From positions 1 to 50,102 of the forward strand of contig JAFRIG010000069.1 in assembly GCA_017432895.1 (NCBI GenBank): a stretch of DNA of 50,102 nucleotides, in the 5' to 3' direction. Of the stretch, positions 11,794 to 49,629 are shown one piece after another. The translations under genes were made by a program, and so were the position numbers. The stretch's first letter is position 1. Every line of letters begins with the position of its first letter. This stretch comes from Erysipelotrichaceae bacterium. GTDB lineage: Bacteria; Bacillota_I; Bacilli_A; Erysipelotrichales; Erysipelotrichaceae. A model generated the notes under the pieces. That model had not been told where the DNA came from. It ran no database searches and saw nothing but the letters and a program-made list of their open reading frames with translations.

Positions 11794-11835
11794 ATTCCGC
11801 GGCGAAACGCATTTTTTCTCGTTCACCGCGCGTTT
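11794..11835. repeat. 42-bp repeat, copy 1 (3' of ATPase 1)
   Basis: Identical over 42 bp to the copies at 13282 and 13416. The repeat is an imperfect inverted repeat: CGCGGCGAAACG near one end and CGTTCACCGCG near the other, around a T-rich loop. This copy overlaps the TAA stop codon of ATPase 1 by two bases. Confidence 0.97.
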
Positions 11836-13261
11836 ATTTTCTAAACAGGTCGTCTAAAGTGATTACATTGACAAAGATCCCGGAATACTCATTGCGATCT
11901 AATCCGAAAGTGGTTATCAGTGTATTATAGATCGAAACTTTTGGCGAAACTTCTTTCTTTAACAGTTCTGCTCGATGAAGAAGAAGCCGATAATAATCTT
12001 TATCAACGGTAAAAGTGTCACCGTAGTATTTTAATTCACACATATTGATAACGTTGTCTTTTCTTTCGATCAGCAGATCAATCTGCGTCCCTTTACTGTC
12101 ATCGCCTCGCTTGGACCATGCCGATTGAGAAGTAATAACTCCGGAAATTCCCAAAGCATCTTTGATCTGCCGAATATGGTTAAAGCAGACATTTTCAAAA
12201 GAAAAACCTCTCCAGGAAATAACACTTTGTGAAGAAAGACCCTGCTGATAAAAATGTTCATTGGTTTCTGAGTTTTTCACAAAATGAAGATAGAAAAGAC
12301 AAAACGGATCGATCAGCTTATAGTGTTCCTGTCTCTTGCTGAAACCAAACGGAACATATTTGATCACAAAATCGCTTGCGATAAGGGCGTTCATATTCTT
12401 GCTGAACCCTCCGCCATCCGATATCTTCATTTCATCCATGATTTCTTTTCTGGTATAACCCGAATTTCGACGATACAGGAATTCGACGATCGATTTCATG
12501 GTCTCAGGATTTTGAAAAGCAGAAGAAAATAAGCGATCATATTCCCCTATCAATTTGGCATTCTTTGCAAAAAATATGGCATCGATGTTTTGAGCCAGAC
12601 TCATCTCCGGCAAAAAATAATTCAAGTAATAGGGGATCCCTCCTACTGCCATATAGCTTTGAACGATATCGTATCGGGAAAAACGAACATTATTCTCTTT
12701 AAAATACTGTTCGCATTCATATAGAGTAAATGGCAACAACTTAATTTCATAAGTAACTCTGCCATAGAGGCCGCCATGATTATTGATCAATTTATCCAGG
12801 ATCCAGGAATTGGCGCTTCCGCAAACAATTACCATCAGATTATTCTGATGACACCCCCAGTTATTCCAGAATGATTCGAATGCCGTCATAAAGCCGGATC
12901 TCGGAGTATCAAGCCAGGGAAGTTCATCAAGAAAGACCAGTTGTCTGCTGCCGTCATTCTTTGATTCCAGATAGTCCTCCAAAAGGTAGAACGCCTCAAA
13001 CCAGTCTTTCGGTTTTTCACGATCCTTTAATCCATAGCGGTACAACGTCTGATAGAAGCTGTTGAGCTGTATCTGCAGGGAATTGTTCTCTATTTCCGCA
13101 GGAGAAAGACCTGCATGACGAAAAGTAAACCTTCCTTCAAAAGTCTGATCAATCAGATAAGTTTTACCGACTCTTCGACGCCCGTAAACAGCTACCAGTT
13201 CAGCCCGTTTGCGATCGTAAAGTCTTTCAAGTTCTTTTATTTCTTTTTCTCTGCCTATCAT
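11834..13261 (-). CDS. AAA+ ATPase with C-terminal PD-(D/E)XK (DUF234-like) domain, copy 1
   Basis: 475 residues. The N-terminal ATPase_2-type domain has Walker A GRRRVGKT (27-34) and Walker B LVFLDELPW (Asp112, Glu113). A winged-helix stretch follows (about 255-320). The C-terminal nuclease-like core has Glu356, Asp395 (QIDLLIER) and Glu409-x-Lys411 (CELKY), matching PD-(D/E)XK spacing. TATAAT sits exactly 6 nt before the ATG, with an extended -10 TG, suggesting a leaderless mRNA. The gene is tightly framed by 42-bp repeats and breaks up the nucleoside salvage cluster, so it may be an insertion. A clear paralogue is at 46498. Biological role unknown. Confidence 0.85.
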   Translation of the reverse strand: MIGREKEIKELERLYDRKRAELVAVYGRRRVGKTYLIDQTFEGRFTFRHAGLSPAEIENNSLQIQLNSFYQTLYRYGLKDREKPKDWFEAFYLLEDYLESKNDGSRQLVFLDELPWLDTPRSGFMTAFESFWNNWGCHQNNLMVIVCGSANSWILDKLINNHGGLYGRVTYEIKLLPFTLYECEQYFKENNVRFSRYDIVQSYMAVGGIPYYLNYFLPEMSLAQNIDAIFFAKNAKLIGEYDRLFSSAFQNPETMKSIVEFLYRRNSGYTRKEIMDEMKISDGGGFSKNMNALIASDFVIKYVPFGFSKRQEHYKLIDPFCLFYLHFVKNSETNEHFYQQGLSSQSVISWRGFSFENVCFNHIRQIKDALGISGVITSQSAWSKRGDDSKGTQIDLLIERKDNVINMCELKYYGDTFTVDKDYYRLLLHRAELLKKEVSPKVSIYNTLITTFGLDRNEYSGIFVNVITLDDLFRK

Positions 13262-13281
13262 ACCTAAATTATATCACCTTA

Positions 13282-13323
13282 ATTCCGCGGCGAAACGCAT
13301 TTTTTCTCGTTCACCGCGCGTTT
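13282..13323. repeat. 42-bp repeat, copy 2 (5' of ATPase 1)
   Basis: Exact copy of the 42-mer, ending 20 bp before the ATPase start codon. On the minus strand the repeat leads straight into the gene's extended -10 box, so it covers the -35 region. Confidence 0.97.
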
Positions 13324-13415
13324 GATCCTTATAAAGTCGTTAAAACGGATAAATTTCTTTAAAAAAGTCCTTTATTTATCGGCTTTAGACGAATTAAAAG
13401 ATATTTTATAGCTTT
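13324..13415. other. 92-bp AT-rich spacer between repeats 2 and 3
   Basis: No gene, Shine-Dalgarno or clear terminator was seen. TATAAA-like sequence follows repeat copy 3 on the minus strand, at about the same place where copy 2 is followed by the ATPase -10 box. Confidence 0.5.
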
Positions 13416-13457
13416 ATTCCGCGGCGAAACGCATTTTTTCTCGTTCACCGCGCGTTT
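13416..13457. repeat. 42-bp repeat, copy 3
   Basis: Exact copy of the 42-mer, 134 bp from copy 2 (start to start). Like copy 1 it is preceded on the plus strand by GCTTT; like copy 2 it is followed by GAT. The shared similarity therefore extends slightly past the 42 bp in pairs of copies. Confidence 0.97.
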
Positions 13458-13482
13458 GATTTGATCAATGATCAATAAGCCC

Positions 13483-27705: not shown

Positions 27706-27737
27706 CAAAAATAAAAGAAGCATCTTTCAGCTTCTTT
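27706..27737 (-). terminator. Terminator of the secreted-protein gene
   Basis: On the minus strand AGAAGC and GCTTCT pair around TGAAAGAT, followed by TTTTATTTTT. The stem starts within two bases of the stop codon. Confidence 0.88.
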
Positions 27738-28584
27738 ACTCGATCCCGGTATAAGGGATCACAAAGGGAATTATTTCTTCTTCATCAACAGGCTCGGGTA
27801 TGACTACTTCCGGTTCCTTTACCGGTTCTTCTTTCTTGACTTCAATGATCGCATAACGCACATCTTCCCTGTCAGGAACCTTTAGATCCCTGTCGCATTT
27901 GAGGTCTTCGTCTTTCAGCAAGGTATGGATCAATGAATCATCTTCTTCTAACGGTATACCGCTGTAACTTACTTTAACGATATTGTCAGGCAAGATCTCC
28001 ACTACTTTGCCAGTAAGACCGTTATAAGGCTCAAATTCACGGCCCATCATCGAAGCCTCGCAAGTCGTATTCTCAAGCTTGATCCAGACAAACTGTTCTT
28101 CCAGTTCCTGTCCGACGATACCGCTGATGATGCTTTCCCGATCGTAATAGGCCAAGGGTTCCCTGATCTCTATCAGATAGACAGCTTTCTCACTTGGCGT
28201 ATTTTCCAGATCGCCGATCGAATCATCGGAATTACTATCGATAATGTAACCATCGGGAACTCTGACCTTGATGAACTCATCCTTTTCTTCTTCAGGTGTC
28301 CCTTCAAAACTGACATAGATCTCCTGATCCTGATGACCACTGACATAAGCCTCAAGACCCTCAGGAATATCCTCGAACCAGTCGCTGATATCCTCATAAT
28401 CCTCGATCTCAAAATAATAATCGGGATCGTTGAGACTTAATACCACCGGCTTGGAACCGATACTTTCACCGACGTAGCCATCGACGATCCCTTCGGCTTC
28501 TACCATGATTAGTGGCGAAGCATGGATTATCCGAAAAGTAAGCAGAAACGACATAATAAAAATCAACAGAACATATTTTTTCAT
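27736..28584 (-). CDS. Secreted two-domain protein of unknown function
   Basis: 282 residues. An N-terminal signal peptide (about 1-23, hydrophobic VLLIFIMSFLLTF) leads to two diverged copies of one beta-rich domain, about 30-115 and 150-235. Both share IVxGxVG, a DxIxVSxxGxPxEE segment and hydrophobic strands. A Pro/Glu-rich stretch (about 250-270) and the terminal IPYTGIE follow. The end looks like a sortase-type PxTG motif but has no membrane segment or basic tail. No known family recognised; acidic, so probably at the cell surface or released. Confidence 0.7.
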   Translation of the reverse strand: MKKYVLLIFIMSFLLTFRIIHASPLIMVEAEGIVDGYVGESIGSKPVVLSLNDPDYYFEIEDYEDISDWFEDIPEGLEAYVSGHQDQEIYVSFEGTPEEEKDEFIKVRVPDGYIIDSNSDDSIGDLENTPSEKAVYLIEIREPLAYYDRESIISGIVGQELEEQFVWIKLENTTCEASMMGREFEPYNGLTGKVVEILPDNIVKVSYSGIPLEEDDSLIHTLLKDEDLKCDRDLKVPDREDVRYAIIEVKKEEPVKEPEVVIPEPVDEEEIIPFVIPYTGIE

Positions 28585-28697: not shown

Positions 28698-28761
28698 CAA
28701 CATTGCAGAACATTGCACAAACATTACAGAACATTGCATTTTTTGCAATGTTCTGTAATGT
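28698..28761. repeat. ACATTGCA repeat array with perfect 18-bp inverted repeat
   Basis: AACATTGCAGAACATTGC (28698-28715) is followed by AACATTACAGAACATTGC (28719-28736) and, after a 7-nt loop, the exact reverse complement of the second copy (28744-28761). Octamers ACATT(G/A)CA recur about every 10-11 bp, i.e. on one face of the helix. There is no U-tract on either side, so a plain terminator is unlikely. Confidence 0.85.
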
Positions 28762-28780
28762 TCCCCTTGATCAATGAGAT

Positions 28781-37410: not shown

Positions 37411-37555
37411 AGGAGAAATTCCTACCACAGCCTTTTTATTTCACGGCTAATCGGTTAATTAGATCCTGAATGTTTGATTCAGAGACTTCATCACCCGCGA
37501 AAATGCCTAAAAGGTAAGTGGACATTCAAACAGCACGCATCATTTTTAGGAGGTG
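37411..37555 (+). ncRNA. Candidate bridge RNA of the IS110 element
   Basis: IS110 elements encode a bridge RNA in the noncoding left end. This stretch has stems such as CTAAT/ATTAG and CTGAAT/ATTCAG, and TGTTTGA can pair with TCAAACA further on. The guide loops were not resolved. Inferred mainly from position. Confidence 0.4.
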
Positions 37556-37560
37556 TCGTT

Positions 37561-38736
37561 ATGACCTATTTTATTGGCTTGGATATAGCCAAGTATAAGC
37601 ACGACTGCTTCATCATGGATGAAAACGGAAACGCCATCAAAGACTCGTTCTCGTTCAGTAATGATTCAGAAGGCTTCAACACGCTCCTTAATGAACTGCA
37701 GAAACTTGATCCGAATCAAGAGAAAAGGATCGGACTTGAATCTACAGGACATTACGGTAGTAATCTCAAGATATTCCTGGAAGCTAATGGCTATAGCTTC
37801 ATGGAATTCAACCCGCTTCTGGTTCATCGTTTCTTCAACTCCAAGTCGCTTAGAAGAACCAAGACAGATAAGGCCGATTCTCGCAAAATCGCCATCTATC
37901 TGAAGTCTACGGAATTCAAACCCGATCCCAATTCATCATACCATCTGAAATGTCTTAAGTCTCTATGCAGGCTCAGGTGGTCTTTAGTCGATGAAAGAAG
38001 CCTGCAGCTGGTTAGACTGACAAATACTCTGGATAAGATCTTTCCCGAATATAAGGCTTTCTTTGATGGAAAAATTGATTCGGCGACTTCTCTGTATCTT
38101 CTGGAAAACTATTCTGTTCCCAGTAAGATATCAAGAATGACTAAGCAGTCATATGAGAAGATGTCTTCAGAATTAAGACACACCATCACCTATGTCAGAT
38201 TCACCAAACTGAAAGATCTGGCAAAGAAAACAGTAGGCAACGAGGATGAGATCCTGGAGTTTGAACTCGGGTTGTCTCTTGAGCTTTTCAAAGAACTGGA
38301 TAAGAGAATAGAGACTGTTGAATCAAAGATCCTGGAAGAATTCTCTTTGATGAAGTGCCACATCCGGACCATTAAGGGCATATCCGATCTGACAGCCGCT
38401 TGTATCCTTTCGGAGATAGGAAACATCGGCAGATTCGATACACCCAATCAGTTACAGGCCTATGCCGGGATGGAGCCTTCCACGAATCAGTCCGGGACGC
38501 ACGAGGGCGGCGGACGCATGGTCAAGCACGGATCGTCACATCTAAGAAGATACCTTATGATGGCAGCCAACAATGTGCTCAAGTATAATCCTGTGCTTTA
38601 TGACTATTACCTTAAGAAGAGATCCGAAGGCAAACCGCATAATGTCGCTATATCACATGTTGCCAGACGGCTGATCAGGATCATCTTCTATCTGGAGAAG
38701 AAAGACAGCGACTTTTCTATTGAGAAAATGAGATAG
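37561..38736 (+). CDS. IS110 family transposase (DEDD recombinase)
   Basis: 391 residues from MTYFIGLDIAKYKHD, with AGGAGGTG 5 nt upstream; a longer frame to 37474 runs through the noncoding left end. The RuvC-like N-domain gives GLDIAKYKHD (Asp), GLESTGHY (Glu) and the DKADSRKIA block (Asp). The C-terminal domain has IKGISDLTAACILSEIGNIGRF, split here as IKGISDLTA and SEIGNIGRF, and a Ser region GMEPSTNQSGTHEGG. It looks intact and could be active. Confidence 0.95.
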   Translation: MTYFIGLDIAKYKHDCFIMDENGNAIKDSFSFSNDSEGFNTLLNELQKLDPNQEKRIGLESTGHYGSNLKIFLEANGYSFMEFNPLLVHRFFNSKSLRRTKTDKADSRKIAIYLKSTEFKPDPNSSYHLKCLKSLCRLRWSLVDERSLQLVRLTNTLDKIFPEYKAFFDGKIDSATSLYLLENYSVPSKISRMTKQSYEKMSSELRHTITYVRFTKLKDLAKKTVGNEDEILEFELGLSLELFKELDKRIETVESKILEEFSLMKCHIRTIKGISDLTAACILSEIGNIGRFDTPNQLQAYAGMEPSTNQSGTHEGGGRMVKHGSSHLRRYLMMAANNVLKYNPVLYDYYLKKRSEGKPHNVAISHVARRLIRIIFYLEKKDSDFSIEKMR

Positions 38737-45338: not shown

Positions 45339-45707
45339 ATGATCAACTCATCCATCGTCTTTCTGCCTGTAAACGACATAAACAGGACCTACCGTTTCTA
45401 TCACGAGATCCTGGGTCTTCCCGTCTTTCAGAAACAGGGTGAAAACCTCTACATATTCGATACGGGCTATGGCTATTGGGGCTTTTGTCAATATGATGAC
45501 GACAGAGCTCCTTTATCGGGAAACAAAGGCGTCTGTCTTTCCCTGAACCTCAATGACAATGAAGAAGTACTAAGCAGATACGAAGAACTAAAAGACAAAG
45601 TGGAAATATATAAAAAACCGTCCAGACATCCCGTCTTTCCGGTCTATTCCTTCTTCATCTATGATCCCGACCATTATCTGGTCGAATTCCAGAAGATCAG
45701 TTCTTGA
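45339..45707 (+). CDS. Glyoxalase/VOC superfamily protein
   Basis: 122 residues from MINSSIVFLPV; AAGGAG is 6 nt before this ATG, while the upstream frame overlaps the divergent gene. VOC pattern: VNDINRTYRFYHEILGLPVF at the first betaalphabeta unit, and FFIYDPDHYLVEFQ at the second with the terminal Glu ligand. Metal ligands at other positions are not clear, so it may be a metal-free binder (e.g. drug resistance) or a dioxygenase-like enzyme. It overlaps the convergent plsY-like gene by 11 bp. Confidence 0.85.
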   Translation: MINSSIVFLPVNDINRTYRFYHEILGLPVFQKQGENLYIFDTGYGYWGFCQYDDDRAPLSGNKGVCLSLNLNDNEEVLSRYEELKDKVEIYKKPSRHPVFPVYSFFIYDPDHYLVEFQKISS

Positions 45708-46302
45708 TCTTCTTCTTTTTATCGATCACCCCGATCTCTTCGTGATTGATGATCCTTTTGATATTGACCCGGTGTTTGTAACCTATAAGCAAAGCGATCG
45801 CCGCAAAAATAAGCACGATCCTTATATCCGCCTTCATATACAGATAATAGAACGGCGGGATCAGAATGACCGTAAGCGTCGCCAGAACGATATAGTTGGT
45901 CGTAAAGCTAATGATAACCGTTAAAATACAGACAACGATCGCCAGTTTCCAGTTTACCGCCACCAGCAGACCGATAAAACTCGCAAAACCCTTTCCGCCC
46001 TTAAAACCCATATAAAACGGAAAGATATGGTCCACGATGACCATCGCTCCCGCAAGATAAGGGATCACTTCATTATCAGGGAAAAGATAGGCGCACAGTT
46101 TCATGGCCATGATCGCCTTGAACATGTCACACAGACCCGTAAATACCCCGGCTGCCCAGCCGAAATTCACTTTGATGTTGCTGGCACCGGCATTCATGCT
46201 TCCCCTTTCACGGATATCGAAACCATGAGCTTTAGCGTAAAAATAAGCTGTATTGAAACTTCCGATAAGATAAGAGATCAATGATGTAATAATGTAACTC
46301 AT
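45697..46302 (-). CDS. Glycerol-3-phosphate acyltransferase, PlsY-like
   Basis: 201 residues from MSYIITSLISYLIG, about five membrane segments. The three PlsY motifs are present with changes: GSFNTAYF (usually GSIPTGY), RGSMNAGASNI (usually GSGNxGATN) and FKGGKGFAS. PlsY moves an acyl group from acyl phosphate to glycerol-3-phosphate in phospholipid synthesis. The changes and the length suggest a second, diverged copy rather than the housekeeping one. The start has no clear Shine-Dalgarno. Confidence 0.85.
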   Translation of the reverse strand: MSYIITSLISYLIGSFNTAYFYAKAHGFDIRERGSMNAGASNIKVNFGWAAGVFTGLCDMFKAIMAMKLCAYLFPDNEVIPYLAGAMVIVDHIFPFYMGFKGGKGFASFIGLLVAVNWKLAIVVCILTVIISFTTNYIVLATLTVILIPPFYYLYMKADIRIVLIFAAIALLIGYKHRVNIKRIINHEEIGVIDKKKKIKN

Positions 46303-46372
46303 AAAGATATTATTGTATTTCTTTTCTTTTTTTGTAAATAAAGTATCGTTTTTCAAAACAAATCATGATAGC

Positions 46373-46420
46373 GATAATTGGCTTTATGTGGTCTAAAAAG
46401 TATAGATAAAGCCAATTATC
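46373..46420. repeat. 48-bp palindromic unit 1 before ATPase 2
   Basis: Perfect 15-bp arms GATAATTGGCTTTAT (46373-46387) and ATAAAGCCAATTATC (46406-46420), 18-nt centre beginning GTGGT and ending TATAG. Confidence 0.95.
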
Positions 46421-46435
46421 AGCCATTTTTCCCGA

Positions 46436-46483
46436 GATAATTGGCTTTATGTGGTATTATTTATATAGATAAAGCCAATTATC
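46436..46483. repeat. 48-bp palindromic unit 2 before ATPase 2
   Basis: Same 15-bp arms (46436-46450 and 46469-46483), and the centre keeps GTGGT and TATAG while the middle differs. The period to unit 1 is 63 bp, six helical turns. It ends directly at the GGAGGTG Shine-Dalgarno of ATPase 2 and contains TATTAT-like -10 sequence. Confidence 0.95.
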
Positions 46484-46497
46484 GGAGGTGTATTAAC

Positions 46498-47907
46498 ATG
46501 GTCGGAAGAGAATTTGAGAAAAAAGAACTGGAATATTATTTATCTACAAACAAAGCAGAATTCCTGGTCGTTTATGGGCGAAGAAGAGTAGGAAAGACTT
46601 ATCTGGTCAAAGAGTTTTTTCATGATTCTTTTTCTTTCTACACGACAGGTGTAGCAAATACGAATAAATCCGGTCAGCTTGCCGTCTTTAACAGAAGTCT
46701 CATCGAGTATGGTTCTTCGAAAAAGAAAGTCCCAAGTGACTGGTTCGAAGCCTTCGAAAGGCTCAAAGAACTGCTTATCAACAGCGAAACTCTTTCTGAA
46801 ACGGGAAGAAAAGTTGTCTTCCTGGATGAAGTTCCCTGGATGGATTCTCCGAGATCCGATTTTAAGACAGCCCTCGACTTTTTCTGGAATACCTGGGCTT
46901 CCCGTCAAAACGATCTGCTGCTGATAGTATGCGGATCAGCCACCTCATGGATTATCGATAACATTATCAAAGACAGCGGTGGTTTCTATAACCGCATCAC
47001 CGGCAGACTCCACATCAAACCATTTACTCTTTCCGAATGTGAAAAACTGCTTCAAAGCAACGGTGTCGATTTTACCAGAAACCAGATCGTCAGAGCCTAT
47101 ATGGTATTTGGAGGGATCCCTTACTATCTTAACTACCTGCGTCCCCGATCAAGTCTTACCCAAAATCTCGATAATCTCTTCTTTTCAGAGAATGCACCTT
47201 TAAGAAACGAATTCAAAGAACTGTTTTCTTCATTATTCAGAAAGTCCGACGATTATGTCCGTATCATCAGGAAACTCTCGGAAAAGAAGATCGGCATGAC
47301 CAGAAAAGAATTGCTGGAAGAACTGAAAATGACAAACTCCGGCAACTTCAGCAAATACCTTGATGAACTTGAACAATGCGGTTTTCTACGCAAGTACTTC
47401 AACAATAGAAACAAAAAAAGAGAGGCGATCTATCAGTTGATCGACCCTCTTACGATCTTCTGTCTGACTTTCATAGAAAACAAAACCTGCGACTCCTGGC
47501 AGAAATACGCCAATACTCAGGCCTATGATGTCTGGTGCGGATTCGCTTTTGAAAGAGTCTGCCTATTGCATACCAGGCAGATCAAAGAAGCCTTAAAGAT
47601 CGCCGGAATCATTTCCCATGAATACGCGTGGCGAAGCAAAGATCCCACAAACAAGGCTCAGATCGATATGGTGATCGACAGAGATGACGATGTTATAAAT
47701 CTGTGTGAAATAAAGTTTTCAAAAGACGAATACGTTATCAGCGGTGCATATGCGAAAAAACTGCTGAACAGAAAAGAACTGTTTATTCAGGAGACCGGCA
47801 CAAGAAAAGCCGTCTATCTGACTATGATCACCTCTTTTGGTCTAAAGAGGAACGAACATTCCGAGATCATTGCCAACAGCCTTGATGAAGAAGCACTGTT
47901 TTTGTGA
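46498..47907 (+). CDS. AAA+ ATPase with C-terminal PD-(D/E)XK (DUF234-like) domain, copy 2
   Basis: 469 residues from MVGREFEKKE; GGAGGTG is upstream of this ATG, while a longer TTG frame would run through the palindrome. Walker A GRRRVGKT (27-34), Walker B VVFLDEVPW (Asp110, Glu111), winged helix about 245-310, nuclease-like core Glu352, Asp390 (QIDMVIDR) and Glu404-x-Lys406 (CEIKF). It is co-linear with the ATPase at 11834 over its whole length. Two tandem palindromes form its leader. The gene ends 25 bp from a truncated nucleotidyltransferase gene. Role unknown; a mobile or defence-type function is possible. Confidence 0.85.
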   Translation: MVGREFEKKELEYYLSTNKAEFLVVYGRRRVGKTYLVKEFFHDSFSFYTTGVANTNKSGQLAVFNRSLIEYGSSKKKVPSDWFEAFERLKELLINSETLSETGRKVVFLDEVPWMDSPRSDFKTALDFFWNTWASRQNDLLLIVCGSATSWIIDNIIKDSGGFYNRITGRLHIKPFTLSECEKLLQSNGVDFTRNQIVRAYMVFGGIPYYLNYLRPRSSLTQNLDNLFFSENAPLRNEFKELFSSLFRKSDDYVRIIRKLSEKKIGMTRKELLEELKMTNSGNFSKYLDELEQCGFLRKYFNNRNKKREAIYQLIDPLTIFCLTFIENKTCDSWQKYANTQAYDVWCGFAFERVCLLHTRQIKEALKIAGIISHEYAWRSKDPTNKAQIDMVIDRDDDVINLCEIKFSKDEYVISGAYAKKLLNRKELFIQETGTRKAVYLTMITSFGLKRNEHSEIIANSLDEEALFL

Positions 47908-47932: not shown

Positions 47933-48202
47933 TCATAAAAAGGCATTGAGTTCATCCCAGCCGCTGATATCATAGAAATCATTCAGTTCCCATTCGATGA
48001 CATCCCTGATACCCTCAAGTTTGAGATAATCAGCAATATCATTTCTCTTATAGACGAAGCGGACATCGTAGTCTGAATCAGCAGAAGCAAAGCCCCAGGT
48101 TCTTGAACCAGACTCCACCGCAAAAAGAACAGTGACATTTTCTTCCTGTTCTATTTCCTCCAGTTTCTTTTTGATCTCCCTGATTATCTCTTCTTCTTTC
48201 AT
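47933..48202 (-). pseudogene. Truncated RlaP-type nucleotidyltransferase
   Basis: 89 residues matching only the N-terminal part of the RlaP/PF10127 family: VESGSRTWGFASADSDYDVRF, split as ESGSRTWGF and ADSDYDVRF with the two catalytic Asp, then RDVIEWELNDFYDISGW. Full proteins are near 250 residues; this one stops abruptly after DELNAFL. The missing part would lie where ATPase 2 now ends, which points to loss by insertion or deletion. Confidence 0.75.
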
Positions 48203-48218: not shown

Positions 48219-48808
48219 CTATCTTTTGACTCCCGTGATCAGATACATCTTCTCATCGGAAATCGTCTTCGTTACTTCAAGATGACCTTCGAACAGCTTT
48301 CTCATCTCATTCAGATCGGGTAAGAGCTTTGAAACATGCTGAACATTGTCATGATGCATATTGAGCCTTTCCCTGCTCATGCCATGGGCAATCGTAAGAC
48401 TGCCGCCTTTATTGAGACTATTGACCAGATTAGTGATCAGACCCTGCGGATCAAAGAAATGCGGAAAAGCATTGTAAATGATGATGCAATCAAACATTTT
48501 TCATAGGCACAAGTCATCGCATTATCGCAGATGATCCTAACGTTTTCATTTTTAAACTTGCCGGCTGCGATCTCAGCCATCTTCGGTGAAATATCGATAC
48601 CCGTTACACTTTCAAAATCACGCTTTAAATAGTAAGGTATCAGTACCCCTGTTCCACAGGCTACATCCAGCACTTTCTTTCCCTTTTCAACTCCTGCACT
48701 GTCAAGGATGATCCTGACGATCTCATCGTCGATCACCATACGTTCATCCCAAACCTCAGCCCAGGAATCAAAGAATTCAATGATCTCTATTTCCGACATC
48801 TTTTTCAT
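48219..48808 (-). pseudogene. SAM-dependent methyltransferase, frameshifted
   Basis: The first frame (from 48808) carries VLDVACGTGVLIPYYL, the SAM-binding motif I, and GIDISPKM. It goes out of phase at an A5 run (48497-48501). The other frame continues at once with MFDCIIIYNAFPHFFDPQGL and the family C-terminus to 48219. One extra A would restore an intact protein of about 196 residues. This could be a real mutation, phase variation, a -1 slip or a sequence error. Confidence 0.8.
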
Positions 48809-49086: not shown

Positions 49087-49629
49087 ATGGATAAGTGCTC
49101 TGCTATAGATTGCGCTAATTATTTAATATTCTTAATGGGCGACAATTGTGATGATCTGTCAAATATGAAGCTTAATAAGCTCTTATATTATGCACAAGGG
49201 TATAGTTTAAGAGACAATGATAAGCCGCTTTTTTATGATCCTGTTGAGGCTTGGAAACACGGGCCTGTTATCAGTTCTGTCTATTATGAGTATGCCGATA
49301 GCGGAAATCATATATATAATTATGATTCATCAAAATTAGACAATATAAATGAAGAAGATAAGAAATTATTATATAAGATTGCATTAAACTTCGGAAAGTA
49401 TACTGCTTCATATTTAAGAAATATGACTCATAGGCCAAATACTCCGTGGTATCAGATCTTTGATGAAAATGTAATGCATAAAGAAATTCCTTCTTCGTTG
49501 ATCAAAACATATTTCGATAAATTATCTGATTTGCCTTCGTGCGATGTTGAATACTCAGATGAAGAATTCATAGGATATAGAGATGACGAAGGCTATCTGG
49601 TCCTTCCTGCCGATTGGGATGATAAATAA
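49087..49629 (+). CDS. Panacea-domain (DUF4065) antitoxin
   Basis: 180 residues. The Panacea/GepA-like core is clear: KLNKLLYYAQGYSL (about 28-41), EAWKHGPV (about 55-62) and VYYEYADSG. Proteins with this domain neutralise many unrelated toxins. Shine-Dalgarno AAAGGGGAA. It overlaps the toxin gene by 11 nt. Codon use is markedly more AT-rich than most of the window, which suggests recent acquisition. Confidence 0.88.
   Translation: MDKCSAIDCANYLIFLMGDNCDDLSNMKLNKLLYYAQGYSLRDNDKPLFYDPVEAWKHGPVISSVYYEYADSGNHIYNYDSSKLDNINEEDKKLLYKIALNFGKYTASYLRNMTHRPNTPWYQIFDENVMHKEIPSSLIKTYFDKLSDLPSCDVEYSDEEFIGYRDDEGYLVLPADWDDK

Follow-up and report, generated by a model that had tools for sequence, protein, structure and literature searches.

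A phased pair of palindromes as a putative autoregulatory operator of a PDC-S27 ATPase-nuclease gene in an apparently mobile cassette

Autoregulated operator systems with phased sites are exemplified by the lac and gal repressors and by toxin-antitoxin operators, and in the REP/RAYT systems a nuclease-type protein is accompanied by cognate palindromes which may flank its gene. As regards the archaeal proteins SSO1545 (2fna) and PAB2304 (2qen), we know of no cognate operator. A further group, PDC-S27, is a candidate defence family, enriched in Archaea, in which an ATPase is found with a PD-(D/E)XK domain; most candidates of this kind still await experimental validation (PMC12988326). The family is also common in rumen genomes (PMC13356809), and both in Archaea and in rumen microbes it ranks with the commonest of the candidate defence families (PMC12988326, PMC13356809).

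The locus described here lies in a window of 50,102 nucleotides, that is, the whole stretch of DNA analysed from an Erysipelotrichaceae bacterium, where two palindromes precede the gene of a 469-residue PDC-S27 protein. This protein is like the described family in its full-length match of 629 bits, in the fusion of ATPase and PD-(D/E)XK domain and in the many copies per genome, whereas cognate palindromes, helical phasing and a recognition code do not figure in that part of the family's description which was available (PMC12988326). A defence role of the window protein is suspected as a candidate function only, antiviral activity being putative throughout the family. With SSO1545 and PAB2304 it shares the ATPase and winged-helix fold (residues 1–325, Z 19–20), but these alignments miss its C-terminal nuclease domain. 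In common with the lac, gal and toxin-antitoxin systems, there are private promoter palindromes, helical phasing and no cross-talk between paralogues; unlike in those systems, binding is attributed to an ATPase-nuclease in place of a dedicated repressor, a three-residue code is readable over some 180 genes, and the cassette is apparently mobile. In REP/RAYT, too, cognate palindromes accompany a nuclease-type protein and possibly flank its gene, but in PDC-S27 no Y1 transposase domain was found and the specificity resides in the winged helix; moreover, dispersed palindromes of the REP type are absent from the source genome, which has two copies only. No literature linking these ATPases with palindromes, nor any account of what the family binds, was found, most subscription papers being outside the search.

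The gene (46498–47907, forward strand) encodes a STAND/AAA+ ATPase (approximately residues 1–237), a winged helix (about 238–315) and a PD-(D/E)XK nuclease (about 316–469). The family match, obtained by PADLOC with the HMM PDLC04984, covers residues 1–468 with an E value of 9.7e-190. In Pfam, ATPase_2 (PF01637) scored 56.4 bits against a cut-off of 33.2 and AAA_14 was also matched; DUF234 (PF03008) stayed below its cut-off of 22.5 with 14.1 bits, which leaves the label 'DUF234-like' of the first-pass annotation weakly supported, and DUF4143 likewise remained under its cut-off. The AlphaFold2 model, built from 30 relatives, reached a mean pLDDT of 92.5 and a pTM of 0.90. Its best fold matches over residues 1–325 were archaeal STAND ATPases (2qen, Z 20.1; 2fna, Z 19.2), with NLR, CED-4 and Orc1/Cdc6 (2qby, Z 13.9) ranking lower, the list of matches being dominated by residues 1–358. 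The C-terminal part carries the nuclease signature QID-x13-E-x-K (Q388-I-D390 ... E404-x-K406, codons at 47659–47715, forward strand). Comparison by computation found both active sites invariant, the Walker residues G27, K33, T34, D110 and E111 as well as the nuclease residues D390, E404 and K406 being unchanged in 182 of 182 relatives. Since the nuclease is invariant, regulation cannot be the whole function of the protein, and this nuclease must have a substrate; none has been identified here, and both the cutting itself and its target are inferred. A nearly invariant C-terminal tail was also observed (residues 464–468, consensus LDDLF, F468 in 176/182), which is only loosely like a sliding-clamp binding motif.

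The two palindromes had been described in the first-pass annotation as 48 bp long, with perfect 15-bp arms, 63 bp apart and ending at the ribosome-binding site, and these coordinates proved exact. Site 1 (46373–46420) reads, as arm, centre and arm, GATAATTGGCTTTAT-GTGGTCTAAAAAGTATAG-ATAAAGCCAATTATC, and site 2 (46436–46483) reads GATAATTGGCTTTAT-GTGGTATTATTTATATAG-ATAAAGCCAATTATC, both with mismatch-free 15-bp arms around an 18-bp centre. They are 88% identical and start 63 bp apart, equal to 6 helical turns; the borders GTGGT and TATAG are constant, only inner bases varying, just as had been noted. Expressed by half-sites, each consists of GATAATTGGCTTTATGT, around a 14-bp centre in site 1, and the two palindromes are centred at about -101.5 and -38.5 from the ATG, respectively. 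Site 2 ends at 46483, immediately before the ribosome-binding site GGAGGT (46484–46489, forward strand, its GGAGG beginning at 46484), and the ATG follows at 46498. A weak possible promoter, TTTTCA-17-GATAAT (46350–46378, forward strand), has its -10 element at the left end of site 1; with 9 of 12 bases matched, it is not above chance in shuffles of the region. The sites lie between the ATPase gene and the divergent plsY (45697–46356, reverse strand), which could share control by the palindromes.

Sites 1 and 2 are the sole matches in the 2.29-Mb assembly when up to 3 mismatches per 30 arm bases are allowed, which excludes a common genomic repeat; had they been one, the proposed module would have been refuted. 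In the same way, the family model scanned over the whole window returned these two sites only, each scoring 35.0 (threshold 20).

The first-pass annotation had also proposed a general module of ATPase and cognate repeat, which would have failed if most homologues lacked flanking repeats. The homologue set comprised 195 unique genes from Lachnospiraceae, Bacteroidales, Fibrobacter and other groups. In a model-free survey (palindrome score of at least 10 within 170 bp upstream), a palindrome was present in 96/111 homologues, compared with 1/333 coding windows. An expectation-maximization (EM) model of the half-site was then fitted, consisting of KATAWYYNGCNRWAWCT, a centre of 13–14 bp and the reverse complement, and at an upstream threshold score of 16 a site was found in 183 of the 194 homologues against 2/194 shuffles and 1/194 coding controls. 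The model-free survey provides the cleaner control, because the EM model was fitted to the same genes. The presence of the sites and their common scaffold are thus computational observations, the module is real and general in the family, and a chance origin of the palindromes is excluded by the family-wide controls. C occupies base 10 of the half-site in 98% and A occupies base 14 in 92%, with bases 7, 8, 11, 12 and 13 variable. It follows from this shared scaffold that different paralogues carry variants of a single repeat design, and the idea that they were unrelated has been abandoned. In a distant clade at about 220 bits (L013–L019), the EM model scored 14.9 at most and the same sites could not be demonstrated.

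Tandem sites are placed at whole helical turns. At least two sites were found in 111/182 genes, the remaining 71/182 having one only, and the distances between centres fall into clusters at 51–55 (n = 77), 60–66 (17), 72–74 (10), 83–87 (6) and 95–96 bp (6), followed by 108–109, 120 and 131 bp, with the gaps between clusters empty. For distances below 100 bp, the Rayleigh R computed at 10.5 bp was 0.80, and the phasing remained significant without the 51–55 cluster (p 2e-5 at 10.5 bp, 5e-11 at 11.0 bp). Related genes not being independent, both values overstate the significance; the repetition of the distance clusters across phyla is nevertheless clear despite this kinship. Such same-face placement points to a protein on duplex DNA and not to RNA hairpins.

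The covariation of the winged helix with the arm sequence, suggested as a check in the first-pass annotation, was evaluated as mutual information between each protein column and each half-site base. Four couplings stood far ahead, 280-11 (Z 15.5), 308-13 (Z 13.3), 280-12 (Z 10.9) and 283-8 (Z 10.8), and all of the residues involved fall in the winged helix, even though the whole protein was scanned. In the structural model, residues 280 and 283 occupy the N-terminal end of the recognition helix (281–293) and residue 308 belongs to the wing, flanked by strands 297–301 and 310–314; in the window gene, the corresponding codons are N280–N283 (47335–47346, forward strand; bases 11/12 and 8) and R308 (47419–47421, forward strand; base 13). 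The determinants of recognition on the protein are thereby located. S280 goes with CA in 35/38 genes; of the genes with D280, 41/57 have G at base 12, and of those with N280, 27/39 have TT or TA; K308 accompanies A13 in 66/73 and R308 accompanies T13 in 46/58, while H283 was always found with G8 (11/11). When sister pairs were compared, each gene being used once, 280-11 (p 7e-10) and 283-8 (p 1e-7) ranked first and second among 7,973 tests, and 308-13 was weaker (p 0.005). The window protein, with N280, N283 and R308 facing a half-site with G8, T11, T12 and T13, fits the code.

The pairing of genes with their own palindromes could also be evaluated by computation, using a code learnt only from other genomes and applied to the 95 genes of 12 genomes with at least 4 genes each. 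True gene-palindrome pairs had a mean rank of 0.147 (random, 0.5), with p 2e-4 in three genomes having 14–20 genes, and in the source genome the own site was ranked first by 4/4 scored genes. Since a few residues predict the site sequence, each protein would very probably recognise the sites at its own gene, a statement that rests on sequence correlation, direct binding being inferred without binding data.

Five PDC-S27 genes are present in the source genome, all of them (5/5) immediately preceded by repeats, which differ from gene to gene. The first paralogue of the window (475 aa; 11834–13261, reverse strand) carries D280, G283 and R in the wing, and D280 goes here with GG at bases 11–12. 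Its gene-proximal repeat (13278–13326) has the core of the site of another homologue (L029), GCGGTGAAC, and its gene-distal repeat (13412–13460) lies 134 bp from the proximal one; this gene remained below the family-model threshold (12.6, degenerate arm), the repeats being plain nonetheless. Genomes may hold up to 23 PDC-S27 genes, and cores are mostly unique within each, with 19 different cores for 20 genes in G649, 14/14 in G663, 12/14 in G646 and 9/10 in G656, so that the expected difference between paralogues within a genome was nearly always borne out. As a side observation, G649 (L166, L186, L193–L213), G663 and G646 have 17 to 23 full-length genes each, nearly every one with a different palindrome core.

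We regard it as probable that the palindromes are a phased, private autoregulatory operator pair within a mobile cassette, binding being inferred in the absence of experiments. The STAND-type ATPase with its winged helix and PD-(D/E)XK domain would bind the two palindromes before its own gene, each of them acting as an inverted pair of half-sites about three helical turns apart. Residue 280 of the recognition helix would read bases 11/12 and residue 283 base 8, with residue 308 of the wing reading base 13. As the two palindromes are on one helix face, the bound protein could cooperate or loop DNA over the promoter; the predicted outcome is an autoregulation kept separate for each paralogue, and palindromes and gene would form a compact cassette, copied or transferred as a unit. 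Any dependence on the ATP state is inferred. Autoregulation is likewise an inference, because the window promoter is no better than chance, and it could be of either sign, repression being inferred. In Firmicutes-like members, a sigma-70 promoter score of at least 9 was reached in 31/53 upstream regions against 6/53 shuffles, the -10 element often lying between sites or within one. Against the autoregulatory reading count the chance level of the window promoter and the genes with one site only; in addition, the cognate sites found downstream of the stop codon are not needed by simple autoregulation.

Other explanations of the same palindromes have to be weighed. Their strong inverted repeats, together with the end of site 2 at the ribosome-binding site, would suit RNA hairpins in a 5' leader, serving translation control or termination, but neither the helical phasing nor the coupling of winged-helix residues to bases in each half-site agrees with this, and promoters inside or between sites and complete sites far upstream make it scarcely credible. 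The fold similarity to Orc1/Cdc6 and the phased repeats beside the gene could recall iteron-like initiator sites of a former replicon, bound by an Orc1/Cdc6-like AAA+ protein. This origin is very improbable, given that the closest folds are archaeal STAND ATPases, that the genes are single chromosomal ones without other replicon genes and that a nuclease motif is present. Tandem palindromes also resemble REP doublets, though no result of the analysis supports the likeness, and might be a REP-like or other generic genomic repeat placed there by chance, an idea which is refuted by the two genomic copies, the gene-specific arms and the association with the gene throughout the family, and to which practically no credence can be given.

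Copy comparisons suggest that palindromes and gene move jointly, as one compact cassette, the mechanism of movement being inferred. Among near-identical genes in different surroundings, the shared DNA begins near the outer edge of the palindromes, ends near the stop codon and goes no further; these compact boundaries were computed for pairs within genomes (L250/L251 and L133/L135 in G656; L035/L041 in G278, of the window's genus) and between genomes (L205/L225, L138/L144, L083/L093). The rule is not universal, since in other close pairs the common DNA reaches further into the flanks (L085/L092, L127/L248), for some of them explicitly on one side or on both (L033/L034, L212/L227, L252/L274, L159/L160). 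Cognate sites just after the stop codon were found in 19/111 genes with enough sequence, compared with 1 control, some genes having two cognate sites on each side. In the Wolbachia phage WO of wRi, the gene with two upstream palindromes lies between two head genes, and other WO phages have at that locus a single similar palindrome and no gene; both a gain beside the palindrome and a loss leaving one are possible. In the WO phages without the ATPase (L333–L338), the position of the lone palindrome, of the same type, is conserved and precedes a head gene. A scatter of palindromes through the WO phages, also considered, was discarded, each phage having one site, at the insertion locus.

A hint of mobility had been drawn in the first-pass annotation from an adjoining truncated gene. 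This gene is real (47936–48202, reverse strand, about 26 bp from the ATPase stop), matching only positions 3–77 of the 249 of the RlaP nucleotidyltransferase family; it is possibly a scar of cassette insertion, and fits an insertion or a deletion at the cassette end. Together with a methyltransferase split over two frames (48219–48808, reverse strand), it forms a decayed region directly after the cassette. The hint has been strengthened by the compact copy pairs and by presence and absence in WO phages, but no mechanism of transposition has been demonstrated. Searches for an empty site gave no shared flank past plsY in the genus, no conservation of the G656 element flanks in G659 and no empty counterpart in the genus for the surroundings of one member of the G278 pair; for the copies in gut phages and plasmids there were no sister records useful for this search. 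The exact palindrome pair of the window gene is absent from IMG/VR, so that no phage carrying the target was found there.

These observations bear on the possibility, which we consider rather doubtful, that the palindromes are primarily ends or targets of a self-mobile element, the ATPase-nuclease excising or inserting its own cassette and regulation being secondary. The compact boundaries of recent copies, the cognate 3' palindromes, the wRi phage gene beside two palindromes where its relatives have one and no gene, the invariant catalytic residues and the high copy number would all be accommodated. Nevertheless, a palindrome after the stop is lacking in most cassettes, the copy comparisons revealed no target-site duplication, some close pairs share longer flanks and catalysis has not been shown; furthermore, slow-diverging functional DNA beside fast-diverging flanks could mimic the boundaries in more divergent pairs. 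In a wider and equally tentative form, PDC-S27 would be a single-gene selfish cassette which uses its own palindromes both for regulation and for copying or inserting beside a cognate palindrome, the diversification of the three-residue code letting many copies coexist in one genome; in that case 'defence' would be a misnomer, in part or altogether, or else the means by which the cassette pays its host. Whether PDC-S27 defends cells, moves itself or does both is the question raised by the data, which name a DNA target for some 180 individual proteins, supply a residue-to-base code open to testing and indicate that paralogues are strictly kept apart.

Other features of the window were also recorded. 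Near-perfect inverted and direct repeats (AACATTGCAGAACATTGCA / TGCAATGTTCTGTAATGTT) occur at 28699–28762, upstream of an open reading frame of 282 aa without Pfam match (27736–28584, reverse strand). An IS110-family transposase is encoded at 37474–38736, and a SocA/Panacea antitoxin-like gene (49087–49629) lies near the cassette.
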